Positions 27,254-45,043 of a DNA stretch of 47,063 nt are shown piece by piece (positions within the stretch are counted from its first letter, which is position 1; every line of letters begins with the position of its first letter). The notes under the pieces were generated by a model. It searched no databases and was not told the origin of the DNA. It saw nothing but the letters and a program-made list of their open reading frames with translations. The stretch lies in the NCBI GenBank assembly GCA_016873335.1, contig VGXN01000008.1, forward strand, positions 1 through 47,063, in the 5' to 3' direction. This DNA is from Phycisphaerae bacterium. Lineage in GTDB: Bacteria; Planctomycetota; Phycisphaerae; Phycisphaerales; SM1A02. A program made the position numbers and the translations under genes.

Positions 27254-28570
27254 ATGAGTATTCAAGAGGTCATTCTTGGCGCACGTAAAGCGCAGATATC
27301 CTGGTCAGCAAACCCCATCGCCCGTAGCGCCGCTCTCTCATCAGCGGCTAGGACATTCACGGCTCATCGCGATCAACTTGTTGATCTGATGGTCGATGAG
27401 GTGCATAAGCCAATCACAGAGGCGCGAGGAGAATTCGGGCGGGCCGTTGCGATACTCGAGTACTTTAGCCAGGCAGTCCTTGATCCTGATGGCACATCTA
27501 TTCCTACGATGGATCCGAACCTAATTCTCTCGCTTCGACGCCCTTACGGTGTCGCAGGATTGATTACACCGTGGAATTTCCCGGTTGCTATTCCACTCTG
27601 GAAGGCGGCTCCCGCTCTCGCCACGGGTAATGCAGTGATCATCAAGCCGAGTGAGTTTGCTACCAAGATCGCACAACTCGTTGCAGAGCTGATGAAGAAG
27701 GCTCTGCCAGAGGGAATCTTCAATCTCGTTCCCGGAGGTGCAGAGATAGGTGCTGAGTTGGTCGACTTAGCCGATGTCATCTCATTTACTGGTTCAGCCA
27801 AGGTGGGTAGGAGTGTTGTCGCTCGCGCTGCAACCCTCGGAAAGCCAGTTCAGGCAGAGATGGGCGGACATAGCCCGGCGATTGTTCTCCCTGATGCCGA
27901 TCTGGATTTGCTAGCGACCCACATTCAGATTGGCGCATTTAGTTACTCAGGACAGAAATGCACTGCCACAAGAAGGATCATCATCGTCGGCGATGAGAAA
28001 CGTAAGACTGCAGTCGTCGAAGCACTCGTTGCAAGCGCAGAAACACTTGTCGCCGGAGACCCACGAGATGAGAAGACATTCCTCGGTCCGCTGATTCACT
28101 CCGATTCCTACAAGAACTACTCCAATGCAATTGCTTCAGCAAAGGAAATCGGAGAAGTCATCTCTGGTGGAAAGATTGATTCCACTGGAGGCAATCTCCC
28201 CAGTGCAACGCTCACAGATTCCATTCCGCCAGAACACCAGCTCATGTGCGAGGAAGTCTTCGCGCCGATAACCCACATCGCGACAGTTGCAACGACTGAT
28301 GAAGCAGTCACACTTGCTAACGCTGTCCGATACGGACTCACTGCATCGATTCATACTGGGGATCTTGAAGCATCGCTTCGAATCTCACGTCGACTTGCCA
28401 CGGGTATGGTCAAAGTGAATGGCCCCACGGCCGGCGTGGATTTCCATGCGCCATTTGGCGGCGATAAGGACTCCTCGTACGGAATGCGCGAACAAGGCAA
28501 AGCTGCCCTTGATTTCTATACGCACACCCAGACTCTCACCATCAATTCGGGTGCAAGAAAGTTCCATTGA
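27254..28570 (+). CDS. Aldehyde dehydrogenase, probably 2-oxoglutarate semialdehyde dehydrogenase
   Basis: A 438-residue ALDH (ATG 27254; a TTG three bases earlier is also in frame). Catalytic Cys in YSGQKCTATRR, general base Glu in VQAEMGGHSP, and TPWNFPVAIPLWKAAPALATGNAVIIKPSE for cofactor and fold. It lacks about 30-40 N-terminal residues compared with typical KGSA dehydrogenases, but all catalytic elements remain. It would oxidise 2-oxoglutarate semialdehyde to 2-oxoglutarate, the last step of hydroxyproline degradation. Confidence 0.88.
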   Translation: MSIQEVILGARKAQISWSANPIARSAALSSAARTFTAHRDQLVDLMVDEVHKPITEARGEFGRAVAILEYFSQAVLDPDGTSIPTMDPNLILSLRRPYGVAGLITPWNFPVAIPLWKAAPALATGNAVIIKPSEFATKIAQLVAELMKKALPEGIFNLVPGGAEIGAELVDLADVISFTGSAKVGRSVVARAATLGKPVQAEMGGHSPAIVLPDADLDLLATHIQIGAFSYSGQKCTATRRIIIVGDEKRKTAVVEALVASAETLVAGDPRDEKTFLGPLIHSDSYKNYSNAIASAKEIGEVISGGKIDSTGGNLPSATLTDSIPPEHQLMCEEVFAPITHIATVATTDEAVTLANAVRYGLTASIHTGDLEASLRISRRLATGMVKVNGPTAGVDFHAPFGGDKDSSYGMREQGKAALDFYTHTQTLTINSGARKFH

Positions 28571-28775
28571 AATCGCCTTTGCGGAGCGTTTTGTTGCAAT
28601 TGCCCTGATTGGCGAAGTGGTCATCGCTGGTGTCTGTTTCCTTCCCTATGGAACGCGGGTATCGCTGGGTGGTTTGCCGCTTCATCCACTCATAGTCCAC
28701 GGGGCTGTGGTTCTTCTCCCTTTGCTTTCAGCAAGCACCATAGGCTTCGGTGTTAGTTTTATTACTTCTGCCTAG
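28551..28775 (+). CDS. Small membrane protein, apparently chimeric remnant
   Basis: A frame from GTG 28551, overlapping the aldehyde dehydrogenase end, codes 74 residues. The middle part LGGLPLHPLIVHGAVVLLPL resembles the first helix of DUF2231-type membrane proteins. From about 28725 the DNA switches to a sequence similar to the end of the gene at 396-809, sharing AGCACCATAGG and the stop context. It may be a truncated DUF2231 gene fused to the tail of another gene at the edge of the catabolic island. Whether it is translated is uncertain. Confidence 0.45.
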   Translation: MQESSIEIAFAERFVAIALIGEVVIAGVCFLPYGTRVSLGGLPLHPLIVHGAVVLLPLLSASTIGFGVSFITSA

Positions 28776-28862
28776 GCTAAGTAGGTTGCCACTCAAGCAA
28801 AGCCAAAGGATTGTAATGTTGGTATCGGGTACAAGATTGTCTGCATCAAGTTTGTTAAGATA

Positions 28863-28871
28863 GAAAGGAGG
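28863..28871 (+). promoter_or_regulatory. Strong Shine-Dalgarno site before a 28-codon gene
   Basis: AAAGGAGGG ending 9 bases before the ATG at 28881 is close to the perfect anti-16S complement, the strongest such site noticed in this window, and argues that the tiny frame after it is real. Confidence 0.7.
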
Positions 28872-28880
28872 GTCTAAATC

Positions 28881-28967
28881 ATGGGCGATCTCTTGTATGT
28901 GCTAGGTGTTTTCCTATTCTGCCTTGCTTGGGGCTGGGGCTTCTCATCGCTAATTGATCGGGATTAG
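28881..28967 (+). CDS. 28-residue single-helix membrane protein
   Basis: ATG 28881 to TAG 28965-28967. The protein MGDLLYVLGVFLFCLAWGWG followed by FSSLIDRD is one hydrophobic helix with a short charged tail. It has a near-perfect ribosome-binding site and its stop is directly followed by the TTG start of the next gene, so it may act as a coupling peptide as well as a membrane protein. No family recognised. Confidence 0.6.
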   Translation: MGDLLYVLGVFLFCLAWGWGFSSLIDRD

Positions 28968-29531
28968 TTGAGTCTGACCTCGACAGGAAAGGAGCGTTCG
29001 GCCTACTTTCCCAAGATAGAGGCCAAATATGGCCAGCCAATGAGCTATTGGTTTTTGGTCATGAAGGAAATCGCAGATCTTAAATACCCGCAGCAGATTG
29101 CATTTCTAAAGCAGGAGCATGGATTTAGCCAGGCCCACGCCAATGCCCTGGTGATGTATTCCAGAGGTTCTAAGAGTTCTAGGCGCTTTGATGACCTAGA
29201 TGGTTATCTAAGAGGCCATGATGGCGTAAAGAGTGAGACTATGAAGAAGATCTTTGGAGTAATCCAGAAGAAATATCCGAAACTAGAACTGGTCATTGCT
29301 TGGAATCAACCTATGTTTAAGCTGGGTGATGAGTACTTATTTGGCGCATCAATACTTAAAAACCACATTCTCATCGCTCCCTGGAACGCTAGCATCTTAT
29401 TGGCGATGAAGGAGGATCTTGAGGGCTATAAGGTAAATAAGAAGACGATTCAAGTTCCCATCGATTGGAAGGTAGATGAAGGAGTGCTAATCAAGATGAT
29501 AAAGCTAAATATCCAGAGCCTAAAGAGGTAA
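28968..29531 (+). CDS. DUF4287 and DUF1801 domain protein
   Basis: A 187-residue protein. The N-terminal 75 residues (YFPKIEAKYGQPMSYWF...QEHGFSQAHANALVMY) match DUF4287, and the rest (VIQKKYPKLELVIAWNQPMFK...FGASILKNHILIAPW) matches the YdhG-like DUF1801 fold, whose members are small cytosolic proteins related to iron chaperone frataxin-like folds. The function is unknown. TTG start at 28968 immediately after the preceding 28-codon gene. Confidence 0.8.
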   Translation: MSLTSTGKERSAYFPKIEAKYGQPMSYWFLVMKEIADLKYPQQIAFLKQEHGFSQAHANALVMYSRGSKSSRRFDDLDGYLRGHDGVKSETMKKIFGVIQKKYPKLELVIAWNQPMFKLGDEYLFGASILKNHILIAPWNASILLAMKEDLEGYKVNKKTIQVPIDWKVDEGVLIKMIKLNIQSLKR

Positions 29532-29537
29532 TGAGAG

Positions 29538-30080
29538 TTACCTAGAGAGCGGACCTAGAAGATAAGTTGCCAGAGTGGCTGAGGGTGATCCTCCAGTTCC
29601 ATGCTTTCCTCTGAATGAAGCAGTTCCATCAACGCCGCAAAGGGAGCGAATCGCTCCAGCTCCTCCTGGGTGAGAGGAAATCCAACTCGTTAAGTTATAG
29701 ACATTGTTATCTATAACGGTCCAACAGCTAGCGTTGCTGTTATTGGCTCGCACTTGATCCATGGTGTATCCAACCTTCGTCGGAGTAGGAGTAGGAGTAG
29801 GAGTAGGGGTCGGGGTCGGGGTCGGGGTCGGAGTCGGGGTCGGGGTCGGGGTCGGAGTAGGAGTGGGCATGGCTGTAACGGGAACAACCTTTTCTCCCTT
29901 GCTCCAAACCAGTTTCCTTCCTGACTTAAGGCAGGTGTAACGCAATCCTTTATAGATCTTCACTTGCTTTACTTTGGTGCACTTTGATCCACTTTTTGGA
30001 TTGACTGCAGTGGCGGTAGTGGAAGGAAAAAGCCAGAGGGTGAGAGTTAGGGAGATAAGGGCTGCAAGATTCCTTCTCAT
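29538..30080 (-). CDS. Secreted cytochrome b5-like haem protein with Pro-Thr linker
   Basis: A 180-residue exported protein: signal peptide (about residues 1-25), a small module KCTKVKQVKIYKGLRYTC...KSGRKLVW seen repeatedly in secreted proteins of planktonic actinobacteria, a linker of about 15 Pro-Thr repeats, and a C-terminal cytochrome b5-like domain with the axial-ligand motif SSHPGGAGAI and a second His in GKHGTGG. It probably binds haem outside the membrane. Convergent with the DUF1801 gene, separated by only 6 bases. Confidence 0.85.
   Translation of the reverse strand: MRRNLAALISLTLTLWLFPSTTATAVNPKSGSKCTKVKQVKIYKGLRYTCLKSGRKLVWSKGEKVVPVTAMPTPTPTPTPTPTPTPTPTPTPTPTPTPTPTKVGYTMDQVRANNSNASCWTVIDNNVYNLTSWISSHPGGAGAIRSLCGVDGTASFRGKHGTGGSPSATLATYLLGPLSR
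29780..29868 (-). repeat. Hexanucleotide tandem repeat encoding (Pro-Thr)n
   Basis: About 15 units of GGAGTA/GGGGTC-type hexamers on the plus strand, encoding the Pro-Thr linker of the secreted haem protein on the minus strand. Because the unit is two codons long, changes in copy number keep the frame and would alter linker length. Confidence 0.9.
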
Positions 30081-30156
30081 GAGGCCGCAAGCCTAAATCA
30101 GATACGAAAAGTGCGCGATTTATAGACACTTTCCCCTCTTAGCCTAAAGTGGGGCG

Positions 30157-30888
30157 GTGATGAAGTCTGAGAAACTATCCCAAGAGCGCCTCCTTGCGCT
30201 CCAAGATCTTGATTCATCCTTAATGCAGCTTGAACATAGGGCGAATAATCTGCCACATTCAAAGTTTCTTGACGAAAAACGCTTGGAATATGCCAGCGCC
30301 AGAGATCTAGCAGTGGCGGCCAGTACTGAGCGAAGTGATATCAAGCATGAGCTCTTGAAGTCAGAGGTTGATGTGGAGCAAGTTCTATCTCGCATTGAAA
30401 AAGATGAGAAGCTCCTGGCATCTGGGACAGGCACACCTAAGGAACTTGAGCAGATTCAACATGAATTAGAGTCTCTCAATAAGAGGCGCTCAGAGCTCGA
30501 AGATGTTGAACTTGAAGTGATGGTGCGCCTAGAGGGACTTGATAGCAGAATTGCCGAGCTATCAAAGAGGCGAGATGAGTTAGCAATAGAAGTTGAAGCA
30601 ACTATTAGAGAGCGCGATCTTGCACTTGCCCAGATTGAGCAAGCAAGGAGCGCTACAAAGTCAGATAGAGAGGTATTGGCTCAAGAGATAAAGGGTGAGC
30701 TACTAGACCTCTACGAAAGGATCAGAGCGACAGCTGATGGGATTGGAGCCGTTCGACTCTCTGATGGCAAGTGCCAGGGCTGCCACTTAGCTATGAGCGC
30801 TGCTGAACTAACCAGGATTAACTCTCTACCTGTAGATGAATTAGTACGCTGCGAAGATTGTCGCAGAATTCTAATTAGGCTCTCTTAA
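30157..30888 (+). CDS. C4-type zinc ribbon protein with long coiled coil
   Basis: A 243-residue protein: residues about 20-185 are a charged coiled coil, and the C-terminus has a zinc ribbon with CQGCHL and CEDCRR. The family (PF02591 type) is nearly universal in actinobacteria and lies directly before RNase HI, as here. It is thought to bind nucleic acid; its precise role is unknown. GTG or ATG start near 30157, 11 bases after a GGGGCGG region. Confidence 0.88.
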   Translation: MMKSEKLSQERLLALQDLDSSLMQLEHRANNLPHSKFLDEKRLEYASARDLAVAASTERSDIKHELLKSEVDVEQVLSRIEKDEKLLASGTGTPKELEQIQHELESLNKRRSELEDVELEVMVRLEGLDSRIAELSKRRDELAIEVEATIRERDLALAQIEQARSATKSDREVLAQEIKGELLDLYERIRATADGIGAVRLSDGKCQGCHLAMSAAELTRINSLPVDELVRCEDCRRILIRLS

Positions 30889-31290
30889 GTGTCGCGAAAG
30901 CTAGTTATCTATGCCGATGGTGGCTCAAGGGGAAATCCTGGGCAAGCTGCCTATGGAGCCCTGGTCTGCCAGGGAGATGAAGTTCTGGTTGAAATATCGG
31001 AGAGAATTGGCATAGCCACCAATAATGTCGCAGAGTATCAAGGCCTGATTGCTGGCATCAAAGCGGCTCATAGGATAGATCCGCAGGCCCACATCGAAGC
31101 CCGCCTAGATAGTAAATTGATAGTCGAACAGATGAGCGGGCGATGGAAGATAAAAAGCGTTCCAATAGCCAGGCTGGCAATGCAGGCGAAGACAATTCAC
31201 CCAGCGCAGCTAATTACCTTCACCTGGATTCCGAGGGAAGAGAATTACAGAGCAGATAGCCTGGTTAACCTAGCACTGGATACTCTGTAG
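30889..31290 (+). CDS. Ribonuclease HI
   Basis: A 133-residue RNase H-fold protein with all four catalytic carboxylates: Asp10 (YADGGSRGNPG), Glu49 (NNVAEYQGL), Asp74 (RLDSKLIVEQM) and Asp123 (YRADSLVN). It cuts RNA in RNA-DNA hybrids. In mycobacteria the equivalent protein has an extra C-terminal acid-phosphatase domain; here only the nuclease is present. GTG start follows the zinc-ribbon stop without a gap, forming an operon. Confidence 0.93.
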   Translation: MSRKLVIYADGGSRGNPGQAAYGALVCQGDEVLVEISERIGIATNNVAEYQGLIAGIKAAHRIDPQAHIEARLDSKLIVEQMSGRWKIKSVPIARLAMQAKTIHPAQLITFTWIPREENYRADSLVNLALDTL

Positions 31291-31293
31291 CCT

Positions 31294-32676
31294 TTAGCTT
31301 CCAGGGCTAACGGTCGACATATTGAACTCACCGATGACCATCGGTGGAACATGCAAATGAGTTGCGTACTCGGCCCATTCTCTAGGTTGGGTCCACTCAC
31401 TCGCTCCCGCCGCCTTGATACGCGATAGAGCGTTTACCGGTGAATCGTTCCAACGGAAGTTATTTGTTGCGCCTTGCACTTCACCATTTTTAACATAGTA
31501 AACGCCATCGCGAGTTAAACCAGTAAGAAGCAAAGTATTTGGATCGACCATACGTATGTACCAGAGGGTAGTTAGCAGCAAACCCTCGTTCATTTGCTCA
31601 ATCTGACTATTTAGGTCTCCGCTAGCTCCCGGAATCTCCATAAAGAAGTTATCGCCGATTGGAGTAAAGGGAAGTGAAGTCAATTGCGCAGATGCTCTGG
31701 TTTGAATCAGATTTTGCAGGACGCCGTCTTTTAGCCAATCCACTCGTGATGTTAATTGTCCATTATCAAAAATTGAACCAAGGGAGCTTGAAACTGAATG
31801 AGTAACAAAGGGGGATCCCGGTAATAATTTACTTGCGGGATCGCTATATAAATTTACTGGAAGATTTGAAAGTTTTTCTCCGACGCGAGTTCCGCCGCCT
31901 TTCTTGGAAAAAACACTCTGACCTTCCCAAGTATCTCTGGCTCCAGAAACCCAAATCATCCAGGTATAGAGATCTGCAACCGCGCCCGCCGGAAGAATTG
32001 CATCATATTTTTCAGCAGCTAAATCAATCTTTCGTGCCTGCCAATTTAGGCGCTCTTTTATTGCCTTCTCGATCTTTTCAATCGAGACATCTTTGAAATC
32101 GTGGGTTTCAACACCTTCCCAAGTGGAGCGAGAGCGCTCATGTGATTTTCCAGTCATTTCAACTCGACCAATTGGTGAATCGTTGCGCAATCGTAAGCCA
32201 CCTTTAGAGCCAACCCAGGTAGTTAGATTTGTATGTTCTGCATATCCAAATAATTCAATCTTCTCTTTAACAGAGCTCTTCAGCATTTCGCCAAGATCAG
32301 GAGCAAATTTCGAAAATACCTCTGGGCCAGTTGGATTATGAGAATTGCTCCATTCGCCAATAGCTACATCCTTTGCTAAGGGCGCGTAATCATCTGCCGG
32401 TCCAGCAGCTTTGGCTGCAGATATCGCTTCGGAAAAGAGAGAATCAATCTCTGACTCAGAGACATTAGTTCGTGTGACACCGCCGGTTGACATAACTGCG
32501 CCAGTTGAAACAAATGCGAGGACAGTGACATTACGCTCTTGAATTACGCCATTGGTAGTTAGAGTGCTATTTGCCCAGCGAAGATTTGCCTGGGATTTCT
32601 CTTTGACAATTACGATACATTCATCACAGTTTGCTTTTTGCAGAACCTTCTCAATCAGATCTTGTGCTGCGATCAT
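31294..32676 (-). CDS. TldE/PmbA-family protein
   Basis: A 460-residue member of the TldD/PmbA family with the TldE-type organisation and no HExxxH motif. It partners TldD to form a protease that matures modified peptides or degrades unfolded peptides. Conserved parts include GRVEMTGKSHERSRSTWEG and LLTGLTRDGVYYVKNGEVQG. ATG overlaps the stop of the upstream TldD gene by 4 bases. It converges with RNase HI, 3 bases apart. Confidence 0.88.
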   Translation of the reverse strand: MIAAQDLIEKVLQKANCDECIVIVKEKSQANLRWANSTLTTNGVIQERNVTVLAFVSTGAVMSTGGVTRTNVSESEIDSLFSEAISAAKAAGPADDYAPLAKDVAIGEWSNSHNPTGPEVFSKFAPDLGEMLKSSVKEKIELFGYAEHTNLTTWVGSKGGLRLRNDSPIGRVEMTGKSHERSRSTWEGVETHDFKDVSIEKIEKAIKERLNWQARKIDLAAEKYDAILPAGAVADLYTWMIWVSGARDTWEGQSVFSKKGGGTRVGEKLSNLPVNLYSDPASKLLPGSPFVTHSVSSSLGSIFDNGQLTSRVDWLKDGVLQNLIQTRASAQLTSLPFTPIGDNFFMEIPGASGDLNSQIEQMNEGLLLTTLWYIRMVDPNTLLLTGLTRDGVYYVKNGEVQGATNNFRWNDSPVNALSRIKAAGASEWTQPREWAEYATHLHVPPMVIGEFNMSTVSPGS

Positions 32677-34175
32677 TTTCCAGCCTCTGCAACAGTATTA
32701 AGAATGTTTACTTTTTCAAAGATTGCAGCAGGCGAGCCATGACTTACTGCAGCTACTTGTCCAGGTTGTGCTTTTCCACAGTTGAAGGCTCCACCAAGGA
32801 CATAAGTTGATGGACCGCCTACTACTCTCATCGATCCCCAGAAATCTGTCGTTGTCGCTTGATAAGCAAGGTCTTTTACTTGGCCAACAATTTTGCCGTT
32901 CTTGATTCTATGGAATTGCTGTCCGGTGAATTGAAAGTTATAACGTTGCATATCGATCGACCATGACTTATCGCCCAGAATATAAATTCCATCATCAATG
33001 GAGGAGATCATTTCTTCAAGTTCTGGCCCAGATGGATTAGGTTGCAGTGAAACATTTGGCATTCGCTGAATCGGAACGTGCGCTGGTGAATCAGCAAAGG
33101 CACAACCATTGCTGCGATCTTGATTTACTCTCGCGGCGATTCTTCGATCAAGTTGGTAACCAACAAGCATGCCATTTTTAACCAAATCCCATTTCTGGGC
33201 TGCGACGCCTTCATCATCCCAACCAACGGTGCTTAGGCCATGTTCGGTGATTCGATCACCAGTTATGTTCATGAGTTCGGTTCCGTATTTGAGTTTGTCC
33301 AACTTATCAGGGGTTGCAAATGAGGTTCCGGCGTAATTGGCTTCATAGCCAATAGCGCGATCAAGTTCGGTTGCATGTCCAATCGATTCGTGAATCGTAA
33401 GCCAGAGATTTGATGGATGAATCAAAAGATCATATTTACCAGGAGTAACTGAAGGTGACCTTACTTTCTCTTCCAACAAATCTGGAAGTTTCGAAACTTC
33501 CTCATCCCAATTCCAGTTTCGGTTATCCATCCATTCCCAGCCGTATCCGGCAGGTTGCGCCAGAGTTCGCATTGATTCAAAACCGGCATCACTAATAGAT
33601 ATCGCCTCGATCTGAGTCTGCATCCGAACGCGTTGTTGGGTTGTGCTCGTGCCATAAGAATCGGCATAGAACTTCTGTTCTTTTACATACATGGTGTGGG
33701 CATTTGCATGGTTAACTGATTTTGCAGAAAGTAGCTTCAAACTCAATTCTTCAATGCGACCTTTTCTTTCAGATTCAGAAACAGAAAATGGATCAATCTC
33801 GTAGGCAGATGCCCATTGTTGATTCTTATAAACAGGTTCGCTAGCCAAAGTAACGAATTCGGTCGAAAGAGGTTTGGAAATCTTTGCCATAGTAACCGCT
33901 TTTTCAGCTAACCGGGTTACTACATCTTTAGTGAGTTCAGGAGAGGAGGCAAAACCCCAAGCGCCATCAACGATTACTCGCACGCCCATCCCGATTACAG
34001 TTTCATCACTTTGTGATTCTGGTTTAGCGTCGCGCAGCGAAAGCAACCCAGTGCGAGTTCGCTCGATTCTTACATCGACATGTGATGCGCCCGATGACTT
34101 AGCTTGGTTTATTGCCGCATCTGCAAGGTTAGAGAGCGGAAGAGCTAGAAAATCCGCGTCAATCGTATGAACCAC
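32673..34175 (-). CDS. TldD-family metalloprotease
   Basis: A 500-residue TldD homologue with the zinc-binding HESIGHATELDR (HExxxH) motif near the middle and the conserved GGPSTYVLGGAFNCGKAQPGQ region at the end. It forms the active half of the TldD/TldE protease. The start is GTG or ATG at about 34175, divergent from the MFS gene. Confidence 0.9.
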   Translation of the reverse strand: MVHTIDADFLALPLSNLADAAINQAKSSGASHVDVRIERTRTGLLSLRDAKPESQSDETVIGMGVRVIVDGAWGFASSPELTKDVVTRLAEKAVTMAKISKPLSTEFVTLASEPVYKNQQWASAYEIDPFSVSESERKGRIEELSLKLLSAKSVNHANAHTMYVKEQKFYADSYGTSTTQQRVRMQTQIEAISISDAGFESMRTLAQPAGYGWEWMDNRNWNWDEEVSKLPDLLEEKVRSPSVTPGKYDLLIHPSNLWLTIHESIGHATELDRAIGYEANYAGTSFATPDKLDKLKYGTELMNITGDRITEHGLSTVGWDDEGVAAQKWDLVKNGMLVGYQLDRRIAARVNQDRSNGCAFADSPAHVPIQRMPNVSLQPNPSGPELEEMISSIDDGIYILGDKSWSIDMQRYNFQFTGQQFHRIKNGKIVGQVKDLAYQATTTDFWGSMRVVGGPSTYVLGGAFNCGKAQPGQVAAVSHGSPAAIFEKVNILNTVAEAGK

Positions 34176-34214
34176 AGCGTAACCTTATAGCATTGCCATT
34201 CAATTATTAGTCGA

Positions 34215-35894
34215 ATGGAGTGCACGTTGTCTAGCAGTGATCTCTTTGAAATCATGTTTGGCAGCTTCCGGGTATCAAAGACCGGCACCCTACGCAGACT
34301 TTTTGCTGGCGCATTTATTAGCGCTTTTGGCACTGGAATGACGCTCTGGTTATTGCTCGTCTATTTACATGACATCCGTGGTTTCACAAATGCCTTTGGC
34401 GGATTCTTACTCTCTTATATGGCCGTTGTTGCGATTGTTTTAACTGGCCCCTCAGGTTGGTTAATTGATCGAATCGGACCAAAACCGGTAATAATCTTTG
34501 GACTATTCGTTGAAGGCAGCGCTGTGGCAGCCTGGTCAATGGTTGAAAGTAAAGAACAAGCAATCTTGGTTGGAACGCTAAGCGCAATTGGCACTTTATT
34601 GATCTGGCCAGCACAGACGGTAATGATTACTCGCTCCACTGATGAATCAGATAGACAGAGTGCATTTGCGGTTAATTTCATGATGTTAAATCTAGGTATT
34701 GCGTTTGGTGGATTAATCGCTGCAACTATTATTCAAGAAGGAAACTTAAGAAGTTTTCAGACTCTATATCTTGTCGATTCGCTCTCGTATTTTGGGTACC
34801 TATTAATGGTCTCAACGATCAAAGATAAATTTCAGGCAAGTGAAGCCGAATCTAAGAAAACCGGCGCCGGATATCGAGAAGTAATAAAAGATAAAACTTT
34901 TATGCGGATTATTCTGGGCGGATTGGGCTACATAACCTTTGGTTATGCCTCTTTACAAGCTGGATTAGCAATCTTCACAACTCAATATCTTGAGCTATCG
35001 CCAAAATGGCTCGGTTTAGTTTTTGCCGCTAACACAATAAGTATTTTCTTCTTACAAGGCTTTATGTTGCGCTGGCTGGAAAGCGTTGTAGATCTAGTCG
35101 CACTTCGAAGAGTCGGCTATCTCTGGGGCTTATCTTGGATCATTATTGGAAGCGCCTCTTTAGCATCGGGTGTAATTGCCGGAGTCTTAGTATCACTTAG
35201 CCAGGTTGCATTTGCCTTTGGCGAAATGATCTGGGCTCCCAAAGCTCCCTCAATCGTTAATCGAATTGCTCCAGAGGAACTACGTGGACGTTATAACTCA
35301 GTAATGGCGATGAATTGGAATATCGCAGCAATCATCGGAGCAGCCTTAGTTGGGCTGATGATTGGAAGTGGCCTTTACTTGGAATGGTTGATCTTGATGT
35401 TAATCGGCTCGGTACTACCGATTACGATGTTTAGATCTATCCCAGGTCTTGAAGTTAAAGAGCGAGCGATAGCAGAAAAAGCATTTGATGCAGGTGCAAA
35501 AACTGTTACCCACCTTTACAACGGAATGAAAAAAGACGGGGGATTAGTTGATTTAGTTTTAGAGCGTGACGATGTACTTTTCCAAATGATTGTTGATGAC
35601 ACCCATGTCTCAAGAGATTTAGTTAAAAAAGCTTGCGATAAAGCTATCGACAGATTGATCATCACAACCGATGCCGTTTCTGCTGCAGGACTTGGTCAGG
35701 GACGTCATCGACTTGGCGATATGGAGATTGAAATCAGAAATGGCAGAGCCGAGCGCCTTGATGGAACTTTGGCTGGCGGAATTGGCACTTTAGCTAGATC
35801 TTTAGAAATCCTGGAAGAAATGGGCTATGCCCGCGAGAAAATACTGCCTGCAGTCACAACTCGTCCGCTCAAACTGATTAACGCTCACCTATAA
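34215..35894 (+). CDS. Chimeric MFS transporter fused to C-terminal part of N-acetylglucosamine-6-phosphate deacetylase
   Basis: A 559-residue frame. Residues 1 to about 415 form a complete-looking 12-helix MFS transporter. From about residue 422 (base 35478) the sequence becomes NagA: KTVTHLYNGM, IVDDTHV, RLIITTDAVSAAG and LDGTLAGG align with the last 140 residues of the 380-residue enzyme. The metal-site His residues of that half and the catalytic Asp are kept, but the N-terminal half with the rest of the active site is missing. This looks like an in-frame deletion fusion of two adjacent genes. The deacetylase part is probably inactive; the transporter may still work. An ATG at 34254 is an alternative start. 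Confidence 0.85.
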   Translation: MECTLSSSDLFEIMFGSFRVSKTGTLRRLFAGAFISAFGTGMTLWLLLVYLHDIRGFTNAFGGFLLSYMAVVAIVLTGPSGWLIDRIGPKPVIIFGLFVEGSAVAAWSMVESKEQAILVGTLSAIGTLLIWPAQTVMITRSTDESDRQSAFAVNFMMLNLGIAFGGLIAATIIQEGNLRSFQTLYLVDSLSYFGYLLMVSTIKDKFQASEAESKKTGAGYREVIKDKTFMRIILGGLGYITFGYASLQAGLAIFTTQYLELSPKWLGLVFAANTISIFFLQGFMLRWLESVVDLVALRRVGYLWGLSWIIIGSASLASGVIAGVLVSLSQVAFAFGEMIWAPKAPSIVNRIAPEELRGRYNSVMAMNWNIAAIIGAALVGLMIGSGLYLEWLILMLIGSVLPITMFRSIPGLEVKERAIAEKAFDAGAKTVTHLYNGMKKDGGLVDLVLERDDVLFQMIVDDTHVSRDLVKKACDKAIDRLIITTDAVSAAGLGQGRHRLGDMEIEIRNGRAERLDGTLAGGIGTLARSLEILEEMGYAREKILPAVTTRPLKLINAHL

Positions 35895-35913: not shown

Positions 35914-36293
35914 GCGAAGAGTCGCCCGGATCACTGCGTTACTTAAGAGCCTAATTAACTTTTAAGCACCGAGGAAAGTCCGGACTCCAAAGAGCAAAGT
36001 GGTGGATAACATCCACCCGGAGCGATCCGCGGGAATAGTGCAACAGAAAGTAAACCGCCAATAGCAATATTGGTAAGGGTGAAACGGTGGTGTAAGAGAC
36101 CACCAGTACTGATAGCAATATCAGTAGCTATGCAAACCCCACTTGGAGCAAGACCACATAGGCCAACGTTTGAGAACGGCTCGTTCAAGTTGGCGGGTAG
36201 GTTGCTTGAGTTCGTAAGTAATTACGAACCTAGATGGATGGTGATCTCGCTAGCAATAGCAAGACAGGATCCGGCTTATAGGGCGACTCTTCT
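35914..36293 (+). ncRNA. rnpB: RNase P RNA, bacterial type A
   Basis: The catalytic RNA of RNase P, which matures tRNA 5' ends. The 5' GAAGAGTCGCCC (35916-35927) pairs with 3' GGGCGACTCTTC (36281-36292) to form helix P1. Between them are the universally conserved GAGGAAAGTCC (35971-35981), ACAGAAA (36043-36049) and the 3' end GACAGGATCCGGCTTATAGG. The length of about 380 fits. Its 3' end is repeated three more times in the window and appears to be the attachment site of the island that follows. Confidence 0.95.
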
Positions 36294-36296
36294 TAA
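36270..36296 (+). repeat. rnpB-derived attachment core, copy 1 (candidate attL)
   Basis: The 3' end of rnpB, containing GGCTTATAGGGCGACTCTTC. The same core, 23-27 bases long, recurs at 38399-38421 (-), 44975-44997 (-) and 46937-46963 (+). Here the core is joined on the left to the rnpB body and on the right to a terminator and GGGCAAA-type repeats, as expected for one end of an element integrated into rnpB. Confidence 0.85.
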
Positions 36297-36301
36297 CCAT
36301 A

Positions 36302-36330
36302 AGTGGGCGGGGGCTAAATCCCCGCTCACT
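36302..36330 (+). terminator. rnpB terminator
   Basis: AGTGGGCGGGG (36302-36312), loop GCTAAAT, CCCCGCTCACT (36320-36330), then a TTCCTATTT tail. An equivalent but diverged hairpin follows core copy 4 (46972 onward), so the terminator region is duplicated with the attachment site. Confidence 0.85.
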
Positions 36331-36367
36331 TTCCTATTTAGAAGTGTTTAGTTTTATGCAAGACTTT

Positions 36368-36429
36368 GGACAAATCTGCCGATTTATATGGGCAAATTTG
36401 TGGGCACTTGGGCAAAATCGTGGACAAAT
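36368..36429 (+). repeat. Arm-type repeats beside core copy 1
   Basis: Five short direct repeats: GGACAAAT (36368, 36422), GGGCAAAT (36390), GGGCAAAA (36410) and GGGCAC (36402). Similar GGGCAAA repeats stand beside every other copy of the core, always in the same orientation relative to it. Such iterons next to a core are typical arm-type binding sites of tyrosine integrases. Confidence 0.6.
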
Positions 36430-36465
36430 TTCCGTGAATCAATTCATCAGCGAGTACATTGAAGC

Positions 36466-36621
36466 ATGAGACTCAACAACAGTGATGGCTTCAAGTACAC
36501 CTTGCAATTGACCTGGCCGGAGATAAGTGCGATTTTCTGGCTGGTCTTTGGTTATACGTATATGCTTCCATCGATGATCATGGCCTGGCGTGAGTCGAAG
36601 CGCCTAGATAGCCAATTATGA
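36466..36621 (+). CDS. 51-residue protein with one membrane helix
   Basis: ATG 36466 to TGA 36619-36621, overlapping the ATG (36618) of the next gene. The protein begins MRLNNSDGFKYTLQL and contains one hydrophobic segment (ISAIFWLVFGYTYMLPSMIM) with a charged tail. The ATGA overlap indicates translational coupling with the following exporter. No family recognised; it is short and easily overlooked. Confidence 0.55.
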   Translation: MRLNNSDGFKYTLQLTWPEISAIFWLVFGYTYMLPSMIMAWRESKRLDSQL

Positions 36622-37076
36622 ATTTAGAAGAGTGGGGTTTACTCGGCATCTTCCTCGCTGGAGCGGTTCCATGGATGGAAGCAATTGCTGTAGTTCCCAG
36701 TGGGATCATTCTCGGGCTTGATCCCACCGCTACCGTAATTGCGGCAATACTCGGTAATGCGATTACTATCTTTCTATTCGCATATCTTGGATCAACAATC
36801 AGAGCGAAAATAATCGCGCGTCGTATAACCAAGGGAAAGTCCGCAGAATCGCCTAAATTTGATAAAGCCTCAAAAGCATTCGACAAGTATGGAATCTATG
36901 GCATGGCCTTATTGGGGCCAATCATTATTGGCACGCAATTTGCTGCGGCAGCATCTGTAGCCGCAGGAGTTAAGCCACTTAAAGTTTCATTTCTCATAAC
37001 TGCTAGCATGATTCTTTGGGCAACGTTGATTGCGGTCGTGATGGTTGCCTTCGACCTGTCCTTCCAATTGATCTAG
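36618..37076 (+). CDS. Small multidrug export family protein (PF06695 type)
   Basis: A 152-residue membrane protein with LAGAVPWMEAIAVVPSGIILG near the start and YGIYGMALLGPIIIGTQFAAAASVAAG in the second half, matching the COG2426/small multi-drug export family related to DedA-like proteins. The role and substrate are not established. Second gene of a three-gene set with the 51-residue protein and the DUF418 protein, all within the left arm of the island. Confidence 0.75.
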   Translation: MNLEEWGLLGIFLAGAVPWMEAIAVVPSGIILGLDPTATVIAAILGNAITIFLFAYLGSTIRAKIIARRITKGKSAESPKFDKASKAFDKYGIYGMALLGPIIIGTQFAAAASVAAGVKPLKVSFLITASMILWATLIAVVMVAFDLSFQLI

Positions 37077-37085
37077 GAGATAGAA

Positions 37086-38237
37086 ATGCAGAGAGATATA
37101 GCACCAGATGTCTTACGAGGATTCGCGCTCCTAGGAATCCTTGTCGTAAACATCCAATTCATGGGACTAGATAGCGAAGAGGGAGCGCGTGGCGAGTGGT
37201 TGTCTGGTGGCGCTAACGGGGCTGCCGGATTCATAATGGCAGCTATCTTTGCTGGAAAGTTCTATCTTCTCTTTTCATTTCTATATGGATACAGCTCGGC
37301 CTACATAATCAAGGATGATCGGGCAAATAGAGGTCGTTGGATAAGGCGTTGCTTTGCCTTGATGCTCTTTGGGGCGCTTCATTTCACCTTCCTATGGCAC
37401 GGAGACATTATTTTTCTATACGGGCTTTTGGGATTACTCCTTCTCGCCATCTTCTTTAGGTCAGACAGGACTTTGCAGATCTGGACTCGTGTCATTTACA
37501 TAGTGTCTGCAGTATTCATTTCCTTGATTGGAATTCTTCTTCTAATTGGTGAGTGGTATTTCCCGCAAGAAACAACCGCTGAAGTGAATGAGCCAAGACT
37601 CAATCAAGTGCTTCGAGATGGGGCCTTTCTGGAGGCAGTTGGGCCACGGGTCGAGCTCTGGGTCTTCGGCCTCGTAACTGGAATTTTCCTTCAAGGGGGA
37701 ATGGCCTTTGCAGCATTTCTGCTCGGAGTTAGGATGGCAAGAAGCAAGTTCCTGACTTCTCTGATTGATCGAGTTCAAAATTCCCAGATGATTAAACGGG
37801 GTCTCATCTTCGGACTTCCGATTCAATTTGGTGCTGCATTCGTTATGGTAAGAAATGAGCAATCGGTTGATCCCTCCGAAGCACTTTATCTATGTTGCTT
37901 ATTCCTAGCGTTTTTAGCCGCCCCCTTGTTGTCTATGGCATATGTTGGCGTGATCCGTAAATTTGTTGAAGAGAGACCGGGATTAGTCGCCTGGATGAAA
38001 CCAGCAGGCAAAATGTCATTAACTGTTTACATTTTGCAATCAGTGGTTACATCTTTGCTCCTCAGCCCGTGGGGATTGGGACTATTCCAAGAGCTGCAGA
38101 CCTGGCAAGTTTTCTTGCTTGCGATAGGCATATGGATTGCTTTGGTATTTTTCGCAACCCAATGGCTGAAGAAATTCCAGCAAGGTCCGCTTGAGTCGCT
38201 TATGGGAACCTTAACGAGGCCCCGTCTACCCAAATAG
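37086..38237 (+). CDS. DUF418/YeiB-family membrane protein
   Basis: A 383-residue polytopic protein. RDIAPDVLRGFALLGILVVNIQFM at the N-terminus and the C-terminal AGKMSLTVYILQSVV...LLSPWGLGLF are the hallmarks of the YeiB/DUF418 family, related to acyltransferase-3 and heparan-glucosaminide acetyltransferase folds. Ribosome-binding site AGGAG about 7 bases before the ATG. The function is unknown; it may transfer acyl groups across the membrane. Confidence 0.85.
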   Translation: MQRDIAPDVLRGFALLGILVVNIQFMGLDSEEGARGEWLSGGANGAAGFIMAAIFAGKFYLLFSFLYGYSSAYIIKDDRANRGRWIRRCFALMLFGALHFTFLWHGDIIFLYGLLGLLLLAIFFRSDRTLQIWTRVIYIVSAVFISLIGILLLIGEWYFPQETTAEVNEPRLNQVLRDGAFLEAVGPRVELWVFGLVTGIFLQGGMAFAAFLLGVRMARSKFLTSLIDRVQNSQMIKRGLIFGLPIQFGAAFVMVRNEQSVDPSEALYLCCLFLAFLAAPLLSMAYVGVIRKFVEERPGLVAWMKPAGKMSLTVYILQSVVTSLLLSPWGLGLFQELQTWQVFLLAIGIWIALVFFATQWLKKFQQGPLESLMGTLTRPRLPK

Positions 38238-38262
38238 TCCACAATGAAGCGTAAATCGTGAG

Positions 38263-38301
38263 TTTGCCCGTTTTTCTGCCTGTTGCCCGATTTATTTGCC
38301 C
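38263..38301 (-). repeat. Arm-type repeats beside core copy 2
   Basis: TTTGCCC at 38263 and 38295 and TTGCCC at 38283, that is GGGCAA(A) on the minus strand, downstream of the inverted core and its terminator. The order core, terminator, GGGCAAA repeats is the same as at rnpB. The 359-base gap 38238-38596 otherwise holds core copy 2, its hairpin and the promoter of the Fur-family gene. Confidence 0.6.
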
Positions 38302-38361
38302 ATTTTTGTTGACCAATTTGATATCAGTTTTGTCAGAAATGATTCCAAAAGAAATAATGAA

Positions 38362-38388
38362 ACGAGGCGGGAATATCTCCCGCCTCGT
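38362..38388 (-). terminator. Hairpin next to core copy 2
   Basis: ACGAGGCGGGA (38362-38372), loop ATATC, TCCCGCCTCGT (38378-38388): 11 perfect base pairs. On the minus strand it follows the rnpB-like core exactly as the real rnpB terminator does and is followed by TTCATTATTTC. On the plus strand it could end the DUF418 message. Confidence 0.8.
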
Positions 38389-38398
38389 CTAATTTAAA

Positions 38399-38421
38399 GA
38401 AGAGTCGCCCTATAAGCCGGA
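38399..38421 (-). repeat. rnpB-derived attachment core, copy 2 (inverted)
   Basis: GAAGAGTCGCCCTATAAGCC on the plus strand plus GGA: the reverse complement of the rnpB 3' end. It is in direct orientation with copy 3 (44975-44997); the pair bounds the 6.6-kb zinc module. Confidence 0.9.
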
Positions 38422-38596
38422 CATAGAGTAAGACGGATCTTTTGCGCTGACAAGAACCTCCTTGTCCAGAAATTTGCCCTTAAGTTCAGGAGTTAATAGA
38501 TCGTCTGTCCTTGTGCTTCTCCTCAGCTTCAACCGCCGCTCCAACCGTACACAAGACAACGAAGAGGGGAACCACTCATAACCTACAATTGTTGTT

Positions 38597-39055
38597 ATGG
38601 AAAGAATTGCGAAGCAGCCTAAAGAACGTAGAAGTTCGACGAGACGCGAAATAATCTTGGCTCTTCTTATTGAAAGCAAGTCATTTTTGAGTTCGCAGGA
38701 GATACATAAATTACTATCAAGACAAGAAGTATCTATTGGACTTGCCACAGTCTATCGACAACTTGAAGGCTTGGTGGAGCAAGGGCGAGCGGATGCAATT
38801 GTCAGTCCCAGCGGAGAGCGGTTATATAGACATTGTGGGCAAGCAGAAACACATCACCATCACATAATTTGCCGCGTTTGTGGCGCTGCAACCGAGCTCG
38901 ACTTCCCAGAGGTGGAAATAATCACTCAAACTTACGCCAAGCGTTACAAGTACAAATCTGTTACCCACTCCTTAGAGATTTTTGGAGTTTGCCTAGCTTG
39001 TGATCGTCTTCAAAGCTCCTCGATAAAATCAAGAAGGAAACCGAAGCTCTCATAA
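38597..39055 (+). CDS. zur: Fur-family regulator, probably Zur
   Basis: A 152-residue Fur-fold repressor. The winged helix contains QEVSIGLATVYRQLEGLVEQGRAD, the regulatory metal site HHHHIICRVCG and the structural CxxC pair continues in GVCLAC. In company with zinc uptake genes and a zinc-type operator at 39551-39567 it is most likely the zinc regulator. A TACAAT -10 box lies about 12 bases before the ATG, so its message is probably leaderless. Its 3' end overlaps the convergent GNAT gene by 46 bases. Confidence 0.85.
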   Translation: MERIAKQPKERRSSTRREIILALLIESKSFLSSQEIHKLLSRQEVSIGLATVYRQLEGLVEQGRADAIVSPSGERLYRHCGQAETHHHHIICRVCGAATELDFPEVEIITQTYAKRYKYKSVTHSLEIFGVCLACDRLQSSSIKSRRKPKLS

Positions 39056-39549
39056 AGATTTCTAGCTTTTAGATTTGTCTCATCTGTGTACACCCACGCC
39101 CTATCACAACCAAATTCCTGCATATTAGTGAGAGCTTCAGAAACAAGAAAAGCCCCTACTCCATTTCTTCTAAATTGTTCTAAGACTCCAAGAACATAAA
39201 TTTCGCAGGGTGCTGCGCCCATCAACTGGTGATGCTTAAGCCAGAAATACGCTATGGGATTTCCCTGATGTAAGAGAACTTGGATATCTGACTCTGATCG
39301 AAGACTTTCGTTGAGTTGAATTAGCAACTTACCCGTAGTCCACGCGCCCTGATCGGGGTGTCCGAAGAAAATTTCATTGTTCAACTTCAACAACATGTCT
39401 TCATCCCGACTTCTCTGAAATGCAACCAACTCGCATGCCTCTGGGAGATGGGCTGTGTAGGCAACTTTGTTGACCAAATCAAGCTGGTATCTGAAAATCC
39501 GCCTCGGGAGCAACTGGGACAGTTTGTTGACTTCATCAATCATGGGCAT
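39010..39549 (-). CDS. GNAT acetyltransferase resembling the C-terminal half of mycothiol synthase
   Basis: A protein of about 179 residues. [20 protein letters not shown] and [20 protein letters not shown] match the second GNAT domain of MshD, which acetylates Cys-GlcN-Ins in mycothiol synthesis; only one domain is present here instead of two. The frame extends upstream to 39567, but those codons (a run of Ile) are the Zur box itself, so ATG 39549 or 39543 is the real start. It is transcribed divergently from the CobW gene through the Zur box and may help adapt thiol-bound zinc to shortage (inference). Confidence 0.7.
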
Positions 39550-39550
39550 T

Positions 39551-39567
39551 ATGATAATGATTATCAT
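39551..39567. promoter_or_regulatory. Zur box (zinc operator) in a divergent promoter
   Basis: ATGATAATGATTATCAT is a perfect 8-1-8 palindrome matching the actinobacterial Zur-type consensus TGAnAATGATTnTCA. It lies between the GNAT gene (minus) and the CobW gene (plus), so one dimer pair could control both. It is 20 bases before the CobW ATG. Confidence 0.85.
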
Positions 39568-39586
39568 TATTTATACAAGGAGCGCT

Positions 39587-40600
39587 ATGAACGATTCACG
39601 AATTCCCGTAACGGTACTCACCGGATTCCTGGGGTCTGGAAAGACAACTCTGCTCAACCGCATTCTGAACGAAAACCACGGGATGCGTATCGCAGTTATT
39701 GAAAATGAGTTTGGTGAGGTAGGTATTGATGACGCTCTCGTTATGGCCGCGGATGAAGAAATATTTGAGATGAACAATGGCTGTATATGCTGCACTGTAC
39801 GGGGTGATTTGATACGAATTCTTGGCAACCTTCTACAACGCAAAGACAAATTTGATCGAATCTTGATCGAGACAACCGGAATGGCTGATCCTGCTCCAGT
39901 CGCGCAGACATTTTTTGTCGACGATGAGCTGAAGGAATCTTGCAGATTAGATGCGATTATTACCATGGTTGACGCTAAGCATGCTCTACAGCACTTAACT
40001 GAGATCAAAGAAAAGAACTTTGAGAACGAAGCTGTTGAACAGGTTGCGTTTGCAGATCGCATTGTTTTGAATAAGGTAGATATCGCCACTCCAAAAGAGC
40101 AAAGTGAGGTCGTAGCGGAAATAAAGAAAATAAACTCAGCTGCACCCATTTTTACAGCAGAGAATGCAAATGTCGACCTAAAGGAACTACTTGATATTGG
40201 TGCTTTTGATTTGCAAAAAGTTCTTGACAATGATCCAGCATTCTTGATTGATACCGACCATGTACATGATTCGTCCATCTCCAGTGTAGGTATTGAATTG
40301 ACTGGTAACCTCGATATTGAAAAATTGAATAAGTGGCTCGGAAAGTTGCTTGGCGAAAAAGGAACGGATATTTTTCGTAGTAAAGGAATCCTCTCAATTG
40401 ATGGAAATGAGGAGAGATATTGCTTTCATGCTGTTCACATGCTCTTTAGTGGTGAATTCACATCTGCCTGGGGTAAGTCTGAGCGCATCAACAAGATGGT
40501 CTTTATAGGACGAAATCTCAATCGCAAAGAACTAACAGATGGCTTCAAGAAGTGCATAGTTTCCAGCAAAACCTCAAAAACTTTGGCTGGCAAGAAGTGA
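39587..40600 (+). CDS. CobW/ZNG1-family zinc-chaperone GTPase
   Basis: A 337-residue G3E GTPase starting at ATG 39587 with the ribosome-binding site AAGGAGC; a longer upstream frame runs through the Zur box and is not used. P-loop GFLGSGKTT (13-21), the metal site [12 protein letters not shown] (Cys66, Cys68, Cys69), switch region [10 protein letters not shown], and NKVD guanine motif. The C-terminal CobW domain follows. Under Zur control such proteins deliver zinc to client enzymes in zinc shortage. First gene of the plus-strand zinc operon. Confidence 0.92.
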
Positions 40601-41604
40601 TTGCTGTTTCAACTCCATTACCCATGTCAGTCAACATAAATCCAATTGATGCCTGCTCTCTTGATGATGAACGAGTTCTTTTGTTGGACGCTGAAGGACA
40701 TATATGTGAAGTCTTCCTCACTAGTCGTGAAGTAACTTTGAAGTGTGAGGCCTCAGTTGGTGGAAATCGCATTTCCTTGTCACCCAACCGTGAGATTCTC
40801 GCATGTGCAGGACCCGAGGGATTCGCTCTATTTAAAAGTGATGATGGGACATTACTTGAGTCTCGACGCGGTTCGTGGTCTTCGGTTGCAAAGTGGCATG
40901 ATTCTGGAAACAGAGTTCTCTTCACTTTTGGTAAAAGTATCTGTGTTACTGATTCATACGGAGTTCCTATTGTCGAAAGCGAGAACTTTTCATCTACGGT
41001 AACGGATGCCTCTTGGATTGGGGACAAAATCGCCGTAGCTGCATACGGTGGGGTAAGCGTTTCAGATGAGCAAGGAAGCAAATTCATTAAGCGGGAGTTT
41101 GTTGGATCATTACTGTGCTTGAGTGCCTCGCCAACTGGAGACTGGATTGTAAGTGGTAATCAGGATGCATCCCTTCAGGTCTATAAAGTTTCCGATGACA
41201 CGCGATTGGAAATGCAAGGTTTTCCTCGCAAGGTAACTATTGCTGAGTTCAATCTTGATGGTAAGTGGTTGGCAAATAATGGCGCTGATGAAGTAACTGT
41301 TTGGAGCTTTGCGGGAAAGGGTCCTAAAGGCCGCTCCCCTGTAATTCTGCCGAAACACGTTGGGGGTGGCACAGCCATTTCCTGGAGCAAGACTGATGCT
41401 AACTTGATTGCAACTGGAGATTCAATTGGTCAATTACGAGTCTGGGATTTGAAACTTGGTTTAGAAGGTAAACCCTTGTACCCCCGAAACCACTTTGAGT
41501 CTATGTCTAACTCTCCAGTTAAGTCGATTCTTTGGGATTCACACGGAAGTTCAATCATTGCTGTACATCATGATGGCATCATCTACCGGAGAGAGACTTC
41601 GTGA
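40552..41604 (+). CDS. WD40-like beta-propeller protein
   Basis: A 350-residue protein with several WD40-type blades, for example [47 protein letters not shown] and [25 protein letters not shown]. No signal peptide, so cytoplasmic. WD40 proteins are often found beside CobW and zinc ABC genes, where they may assist metal transfer; their role is unsettled. The GTG at 40552 overlaps the CobW gene by 49 bases; a later start is possible. The end overlaps znuC (GTGA). Confidence 0.8.
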
Positions 41605-42323
41605 GCCATGCTCTCCTTGAGGCCCGCAACCTCTACGTGTACAGAGGTGACAGATTGGTCCTCTCTCAGGTTTCGTTTGAGTTTAGTGGCGGTGAACAGG
41701 TTGCTCTGATCGGCCAAAATGGGTCCGGGAAGACAACTCTTTTGATGGCCCTTGCCGGCATCACAAAATATGAAGGGGAAATGTTCTACCAAAATAAACC
41801 TTGCCACCACGGCGAGCACCGGCAACAAATTGGATATGTTCCACAAAGATCCCAGGTCCGATGGGATTTACCATTACAAGTTCTCGATGTAGTTAAATCC
41901 GGTACAGCGGGCAATCCTCACCTAAAGGGATGGGTTCACAAAAGAGAGCGTGAGGAGAGGGCATATCAGGCGCTTCGACAGGTCAGTGCACTTCCTTTGG
42001 CGAAGCGAAGAATCAATAGTCTCTCTGGTGGACAAGCCCAGAGGGTTTTAATCGCCCGCAGCCTTGTATCAAGTCCCGACATACTCCTTTTAGATGAGCC
42101 ATTTGCTGGCCTAGATGCACAGGCCCTTGACCGGATTGTCGATGTGCTGCACGAAAAGTCGCAGGAGGGCACCCTTGTTGTAGCCGCCATGCATGAGTTA
42201 GACATCGTGCAGTCATCGTTCCAACGCGCCATTCTCATTGAGAGTCAGAGCAGGCTTATTGATGGGCCGCCAAACGAGATTTTAGATAGTCACTCCAGGA
42301 GAGTTCGGGTGGCGACGCCCTAA
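41601..42323 (+). CDS. znuC: Zinc ABC transporter ATPase ZnuC
   Basis: A 240-residue ABC ATPase with Walker A GQNGSGKTT, signature LSGGQAQRVLIA, Walker B ILLLDEPFAGLD, and the metal-transporter-type Q-loop GYVPQRSQV. GTG start at 41601 overlaps the WD40 stop, and its TAA overlaps the ATG of znuB. The family imports zinc or manganese; zinc is chosen from the Zur box and the CobW neighbour. Confidence 0.92.
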   Translation: MSHALLEARNLYVYRGDRLVLSQVSFEFSGGEQVALIGQNGSGKTTLLMALAGITKYEGEMFYQNKPCHHGEHRQQIGYVPQRSQVRWDLPLQVLDVVKSGTAGNPHLKGWVHKREREERAYQALRQVSALPLAKRRINSLSGGQAQRVLIARSLVSSPDILLLDEPFAGLDAQALDRIVDVLHEKSQEGTLVVAAMHELDIVQSSFQRAILIESQSRLIDGPPNEILDSHSRRVRVATP

Positions 42324-43177
42324 TGAATCTTTATGACATCTTGATCGCGCCATTTGATTACTCATTCATGCGAAATGCTCTCATTGCTGTTTTGATAGCC
42401 GGAGTCTTGGCGCCGATCTCTGGTTTCTGGGCTCTGAATAGACGAATGGTTTACCTGATGGATGCCATGTCACACTCGGTTCTCCCGGGAGTCATTTTGG
42501 CAACTCTCTGGGGCTTCAGCTATCTCTACGGCGGACTTCTCGCAGCTTTACTGCTGACGGCCATCGTATTTTTTTTGGCAAAAAAAGAGCGTGCCCCTGA
42601 GGATGGCGCCATCGGAGTGGGCGCCCAAACCCTCTTTGCTGCTGGAGTAATTCTGGCTTCGAAAAGCTCGGACTCGCGAAGTTTCAATCACATCCTTTTT
42701 GGAAATCCTTTTGCAATTGATTCTTCAGCTATCGCGCTCATGTTTTCCACGGCGATAGTTGCGATTCTTCTCCTAGGCTCAATGCAATCTAAATTGGTTG
42801 CATCCACTTTTGATCATGAACATGCTGAGGCAATTGGTGTGAAAGTGAAGTGGGTTGATCTAGTCCTAATTCTTGCATTGGCATGCACCACGGTTGTTGG
42901 CCTTAGCTCTGTTGGAGTGCTTATGACAATCTCACTAAGCGTCACTCCAGCCGTCACCATGAGAGTTTTAAAGGTCTCCTTCATGAAAGCTCGCTACGGG
43001 TGCGTGTTAGTGGGTGGCCTATCCGGGTTATTCGGCATCTTATTCTCGTACCACTTCGGTGTCCCTGCTGGACCAACAGTTGCATTGACTTGTACCGCAA
43101 TCCTCATTGCCAGCATTTTTTACATATACGCAAAGACTCTTTTTCTATCCAGCAAGAAGAGGGAGGTCACAGTATGA
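42323..43177 (+). CDS. znuB: Zinc ABC transporter permease ZnuB
   Basis: A 284-residue membrane protein of the ZnuB/MntB family with eight to nine helices. Typical features are SGFWALNRRMVYLMDAMSHSVLPGV, the IGVGAQTLFAAGVIL segment and GLSSVGVLMTISLSVTPAVT. It forms the channel with ZnuC. Overlaps by one base with znuC and by four with the next gene. Confidence 0.92.
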   Translation: MNLYDILIAPFDYSFMRNALIAVLIAGVLAPISGFWALNRRMVYLMDAMSHSVLPGVILATLWGFSYLYGGLLAALLLTAIVFFLAKKERAPEDGAIGVGAQTLFAAGVILASKSSDSRSFNHILFGNPFAIDSSAIALMFSTAIVAILLLGSMQSKLVASTFDHEHAEAIGVKVKWVDLVLILALACTTVVGLSSVGVLMTISLSVTPAVTMRVLKVSFMKARYGCVLVGGLSGLFGILFSYHFGVPAGPTVALTCTAILIASIFYIYAKTLFLSSKKREVTV

Positions 43178-44560: not shown

Positions 44561-44567
44561 AAAAACG

Positions 44568-44612
44568 ATCCTGCTTCCACTTAACTCTGTATACGTTAAG
44601 TGGAAGCAGGAT
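44568..44612 (+). terminator. 18-bp perfect hairpin after znuA
   Basis: ATCCTGCTTCCACTTAAC (44568-44585), loop TCTGTATAC, and its exact complement (44595-44612), preceded by an A-run and followed by ATTTAT. It ends or attenuates the zinc operon before the last gene, and lies 7 bases before that gene's ribosome-binding site. Confidence 0.85.
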
Positions 44613-44629
44613 ATTTATCGAGGAGTAGT

Positions 44630-44905: not shown

Positions 44906-44974
44906 GTCCTTTTGAAGAGGACTCTTGGTCACCATTGGGGATGCGCTGCTTGAACTCATATTGAGAGCCGTTTG

Positions 44975-44997: not shown

Positions 44998-45043
44998 GAC
45001 GACATCTTTATGTTTATGCGTGAGAGCACGCTCGAGAAATGTA

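Follow-up and report, generated by a model that had tools for sequence, protein, structure and literature searches.

The window, by which we mean the whole stretch of DNA that was analysed (positions 1-47063 of contig VGXN01000008.1, 47,063 nucleotides), carries on its forward strand a single open reading frame that runs from an ATG at 34215 to a stop codon ending at 35894 and encodes 559 amino acids according to the list of open reading frames and their translations. In its product, an MFS transporter is continued by the C-terminal half of a NagA-like protein of a short type, and the frame lies between a divergent tldD, from which the MFS start is 40 nt away, and rnpB, which begins 23 nt after the stop of the fusion. 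The features of the locus are as follows.

30889-31290, plus strand: RNase HI-like gene, conserved left flank (tblastn matches to G066, G077 and G063)
31294-32676, minus strand: tldE (pmbA-like), left neighbour (tblastn, 76-80% to G073, G077 and G063)
32673-34175, minus strand: tldD, divergently oriented on the left, marker of the locus in relatives (tblastn, 81-82% to G073, G077 and G063)
34215-35456, plus strand: MFS transporter part, about 414 residues with 12 predicted helices (PF07690, AlphaFold, Foldseek, alignment to relatives)
35440-35465, plus strand: junction zone, where the MFS ends and nagA homology sets in (located by comparing DNA and protein with the MFS of G084 and the nagA of G073, G077, G063 and G066)
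35457-35894, plus strand: NagA part, about 145 residues that make up the C-terminal half of its short NagA-like parent, and the stop codon (TIGR00221 positions 204-347; alignment; ligand positions from PMC6016474)
35918-36294, plus strand: rnpB, RNase P RNA class A (RF00010, 323 bits; 95.5% identical to the rnpB of G066)
36270-36292, plus strand: core of the rnpB 3' end, presumed attachment site (recurs exactly in relatives and at other places of the window)
46937-47052, plus strand: the rnpB 3' end and its flank for a second time in direct orientation, by the end of the contig (82% identical to 36270-36384 over 115 nt)

Elsewhere in the window, the opposite ends of the contig each carry one of a closely similar pair of genes for membrane proteins of 135-137 aa (396-809 and 45162-45569).

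The window contig (C8 of bin G000, 2.0 Mb) is very probably misbinned, since the bin holds a second rnpB gene on its contig C1 and since searches of genomes from the same genus gave no relative of the fusion protein, its MFS or the window's TldD; for want of relatives of the fusion and of TldD there, the bin's own genus was rejected as host. The only match in the species-representative collection is contig VGBW01000021.1 (K_DeepCast_65m_m2_221), part of a 1.3-Mb actinobacterial genome of the same species (G061). Over window positions 28215-35375 (7,161 nt) it differs by a single mismatch, and the protein sequence encoded in its other 1,708 nt is 100% identical to what the window encodes further left. 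Because this contig is near-identical over the stretch compared, the host is probably a small freshwater actinobacterium of the Nanopelagicaceae. The fusion was looked for among 60 relatives of the bin and then among 150 and 296 relatives of the likely true host, and no other genome had it.

The MFS part, whose true start may be either ATG 34215 or ATG 34254, is a member of Pfam MFS_1 (PF07690), which covers residues 29-286 of the fusion with 98.1 bits against a cut-off of 33.4. An AlphaFold model of the fusion places 12 long helices with the MFS fold between residues 24 and 407, and the best Foldseek fold matches of this part are LmrP (E=2.4e-10) and NorA. The MFS_1 match and the 12 helices are common to DHA1-type MFS drug:H+ antiporters (MdtH, YdeE, LmrP, NorA), as is a motif-A-like GPSGWLIDRIGPK, whereas the foreign tail of 145 aa sets the window protein apart from them; its NCBIfam matches to MdtH and YdeE are weak, far under the curated equivalog cut-offs. 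Since the nearest MFS homologue (G084, 55%) terminates with KRKVS and a stop codon at the aligned point, a few residues from the junction, the transporter is complete, as the preliminary description had it, and has lost little more than its stop. MFS relatives, with identities of about 30-55%, are common in the family, and the homologues whose surroundings were read (G084, G100, G336, G366) adjoin peptide-ABC genes.

As for the tail, fusion residues 419-556 align to positions 204-347 of 380 in NagA TIGR00221, with NagA homology from residue ~417 onwards. The preliminary description saw here the C-terminal third of NagA, joined in frame behind an MFS gene next to rnpB and starting at the THLYN motif, with the junction at about 35465-35480. 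Fusion and neighbourhood hold good; comparison with the MFS and nagA of relatives moves the junction slightly to the left, to ~35440-35465, NagA homology begins some 15 residues before THLYN, at ~35457-35465, and the fragment is a half, its local parent being a NagA-like protein of ~294 aa that has no small beta domain. TIGR00221 scores 62.4 bits with the whole fusion and 67 with the fragment, both under its cut-off of 225.65, under which the intact local parent (294 aa) also falls (185.1). Canonical NagA was rejected as parent because it is only ~32% identical to the fragment, versus 67-80% for the short NagA-like family found at the locus; a canonical NagA of 367 aa is also encoded in the same-species genome G061. 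That genome holds, in addition, a second nagA-like relic (L092:7949-8421, on its contig C1), which misses its first half, has a frameshift near its end and is closest to the copy in G240 (69%). The short family at large (~294-301 aa; L076:3786-4667, L080:5469-6347, L125:2518-3414 and others) has nothing but the barrel, the small beta domain being absent, and elsewhere in the host's family its genes adjoin others that, as named by reading their sequences, resemble a sugar-isomerase-domain gene and a BadF-type kinase gene. We found no direct report on nagA in Nanopelagicales in the literature.

Compared with NagA (TIGR00221; PDB 6fv3, 1ymy, 2vhl), the tail shares the C-terminal half of the barrel with its THLYN, DDTHV and TTDA motifs, yet it is without the first barrel half (with the HxN/HxH, EGP and GH motifs) and most metal ligands. 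In M. smegmatis NagA, metals are bound by His-56, His-58, Glu-122, His-188, His-209 and Asp-267 (PMC6016474). Only His-209 and Asp-267 of this set have equivalents in the fragment, which also keeps the histidine of the second-half DxxHV and misses the equivalents of Glu-122 and His-188. So THLYN, previously described as the conserved metal-site motif, is indeed one ligand motif, while most of the others are gone. The intact short relatives, for their part, align to the barrel of 6fv3 (residues 66-326 of 401), with their Glu, His, His, His and Asp motifs preserved. Mutants in the metal Glu or the catalytic Asp (M. marinum NagA E127A, M. smegmatis NagA D267A) had no measured activity (PMC6016474). 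With most metal ligands missing, deacetylase activity of the fusion seems very unlikely, and the function of the short NagA at the tldD-rnpB locus has, judging from the motifs, most likely been lost.

What occupies the slot between tldD and rnpB differs among relatives. In G073, G077 and G063, tldE and tldD are followed, ~50-65 nt from tldD, by an intact nagA-like gene (293-294 aa), a distance similar to the 40 nt of the MFS in the window; the RNase HI-like gene lies upstream of tldE/tldD also in G077 and G063, and rnpB comes directly after nagA in G077, G063 and G066. The last of these keeps nagA-rnpB and has tldED swapped for a gene encoding a 609-aa solute-binding-protein-like product (L077:1505-3334), between the RNase HI-like gene and nagA, a further exchange of genes on the 5' side of rnpB. 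Five genomes (G075, G078, G062, G076, G081) have tldD directly beside rnpB, and in G083 the slot is taken by an acyltransferase-like gene. Being empty in five relatives and filled by an acyltransferase in one, the slot turns over, and the distribution suggests that the nagA-like gene most likely entered it within this clade. In the window, the MFS stands where the first half of nagA would be; the 3' half of nagA and the usual spacing to rnpB are kept. Apart from the window contig, the fusion is absent from all 296 family genomes, as is an MFS beside nagA. There is thus neither a conserved family of fusion genes (0/296), the prospect of many species sharing the fusion having been raised against the accident proposed in the preliminary description, nor, among the same 296, a relative with separate MFS and nagA genes at this locus of the kind that description advised looking for. 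Our searches found neither donor sequence nor an intermediate with the order tldD-MFS-intact nagA-rnpB.

Measured against intact copies, the fragment has 68-80% identity and a dN of 0.13-0.23; over the same stretch, intact copies compared with each other have 71-85% identity and a dN of 0.08-0.22, dS being saturated and dN/dS ratios therefore unusable for the fragment. There are no stops, and all 31 invariant columns are unaltered in the fragment, so that neither pairwise dN nor the invariant columns give a sign of relaxed decay. Because the tail is undecayed, the event was probably recent, albeit continuing selection could also leave such a tail.

These observations fit, quite probably in our view, a relic: a clipped nagA remnant that stayed behind an incoming MFS gene by accident and did not give rise to a new two-part protein. 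The reading presupposes that the junction is real, and the junction is present in one contig only. An assembler may instead have joined strain variants, with the genome itself having an MFS with its own stop and then an intact nagA, or another gene, before rnpB. The samples with K_DeepCast-type names belong to a Lake Tanganyika study in which each was assembled singly with metaSPAdes (PMC8245535); to go by the K_DeepCast name of the same-species genome, the metagenome behind the window probably comes from that lake as well. The same-species contig, a second assembly in which tldD is likewise adjoined by the MFS, stops at 35375, ~85 bases before the junction, and neither the window's nagA piece nor rnpB was found in the G061 genome. 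Moreover, the window contig very probably sits in a wrong bin and relatives' contigs often break at or near rnpB, too, which repeated rnpB ends would explain. On the other side, a random chimera is unlikely because the two flanks belong to one locus of one clade, with tldD to the left and the nagA 3' half with the usual short spacing to rnpB to the right; neither G000 nor G061 has a nagA 5' half of this type as a separate piece, and the join is an open frame, even though joining in frame happens by chance in ~1/3 of cases and is unremarkable alone. An artefact of assembly thus strikes us as improbable. The junction 23-mer has no match in IMG/VR, and the phage collection gave distant MFS or NagA matches only, none of which spans both.

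If the junction is genuine, the preliminary description's explanation, a deletion between two neighbouring genes, would yield it had an MFS gene first been inserted between tldD and nagA. As an event between genes that had long been neighbours, however, such a deletion has next to no probability for us, since no relative has an MFS beside nagA and nagA is directly beside tldD in G073, G077 and G063; MFS and nagA as long-standing neighbours were seen in no genome. Given the intact order tldD-nagA-rnpB without an MFS, and MFS homologues that, where their surroundings were read, lie elsewhere, insertion or replacement is needed. The other part of that explanation, an MFS joined to a truncated nagA in a frame kept by chance, is supported. 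Nor do we give much credit to a functional fusion in which the NagA half would give the transporter a non-catalytic cytoplasmic domain for binding, regulation or dimerisation, maybe one for amino-sugar phosphates: very improbable as it appears, it would account for the 31 invariant columns all being kept, for a divergence no faster than among intact copies and for part of the tail reaching pLDDT 80-94 in the model. Yet recency accounts equally well for the lack of decay, and partial order is expected because the model used aligned NagA rows. Besides, the tail is half a barrel with most ligands gone, and the fusion is confined to one lineage (0/296 others).

The accidental relic that we favour may have arisen as follows. 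An ancestor of the clade would have had a short nagA-like gene between tldD and rnpB. An MFS gene, of the kind found beside peptide-ABC genes in the family and presumably of horizontal origin, would then have entered the slot and displaced the promoter-proximal half of nagA, either through one illegitimate exchange or through insertion followed by deletion. The right breakpoint would have come to lie only a few codons from the MFS's own stop, and the frame with the rest of nagA would have been kept by a 1-in-3 chance. The product, if expressed, would most likely be an ordinary MFS transporter, with transport retained, plus a useless cytoplasmic tail. As such it would not differ notably from other chance gene fusions or clipped pseudogenes at insertion-prone loci, where a resident gene is cut short by a newcomer and the frame happens to be kept, in a single lineage.

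On its other side, rnpB borders a series of repeats. The last 23 bases of rnpB (TCCGGCTTATAGGGCGACTCTTC) recur at 38399-38421 and 44975-44997 (both inverted) and at 46937-46959 (direct), which makes four copies in the window, where they delimit three gene groups (36270-47052); the two inverted copies bracket a zinc-handling block with a Fur-like regulator, a CobW-like GTPase, a zinc-type ABC transporter and a binding protein. The exact 23-mer occurs in 151 of the 296 family genomes, and about 71 of the 151, as tallied, hold 2-6 copies, often clustered on one strand; among the matches listed there was none to a reversed control 23-mer pattern. Arrays were read in G141 (L172), G075 (L173), G093 (L174) and G281 (L177), with six copies in 3.4 kb in G075 and four exact ones in 6 kb in G141. 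In both of these genomes, single genes or small groups of genes immediately downstream of rnpB are set apart by the copies. One cassette, a 110-aa gene, is common to G141 and G075 (proteins 84% identical), another of 178 aa to G075 and G093 (78%). While arrays in relatives are mostly on the same strand, two of the four window copies are inverted. No integrase or recombinase was recognised among the open reading frames read in the window or the arrays.

Going by these repeats, the region downstream of rnpB looks like an additive or cassette island anchored on rnpB. It resembles the additive islands of Methylopumilus with their tRNA-Lys 3'-end repeats (PMC10872708) in that several copies of an RNA-gene end separate groups of cargo genes, four copies in the window; it differs from them in that the anchor is rnpB and not a tRNA (compare the Prochlorococcus tycheposons), and we found nothing direct on rnpB islands in the literature. 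The preliminary description had set the fusion just upstream of a site used for integration; the 3' end of rnpB does behave like one, with its copies at 38399, 44975 and 46937, but it is found across rnpB from the fusion, on the 3' side, and does not directly explain it. More tentatively, and we think it possible rather than likely, rnpB may be a two-sided hot spot of gene exchange in the family, where integron-like cassettes between copies of ~23 bases gather on the 3' side and the slot on the 5' side swaps its content (empty, nagA-like, acyltransferase, MFS), with the fusion as a by-product and no isolated accident.

The fusion protein itself, a remnant specific to its lineage, matters little, save that annotation pipelines might wrongly label it a fusion of transporter and deacetylase. 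What it documents is a slot next to an essential RNA gene that close relatives fill differently. A better lead than the fusion are the arrays of rnpB 3'-end repeats, which have the appearance of a family-wide cassette-gathering locus.
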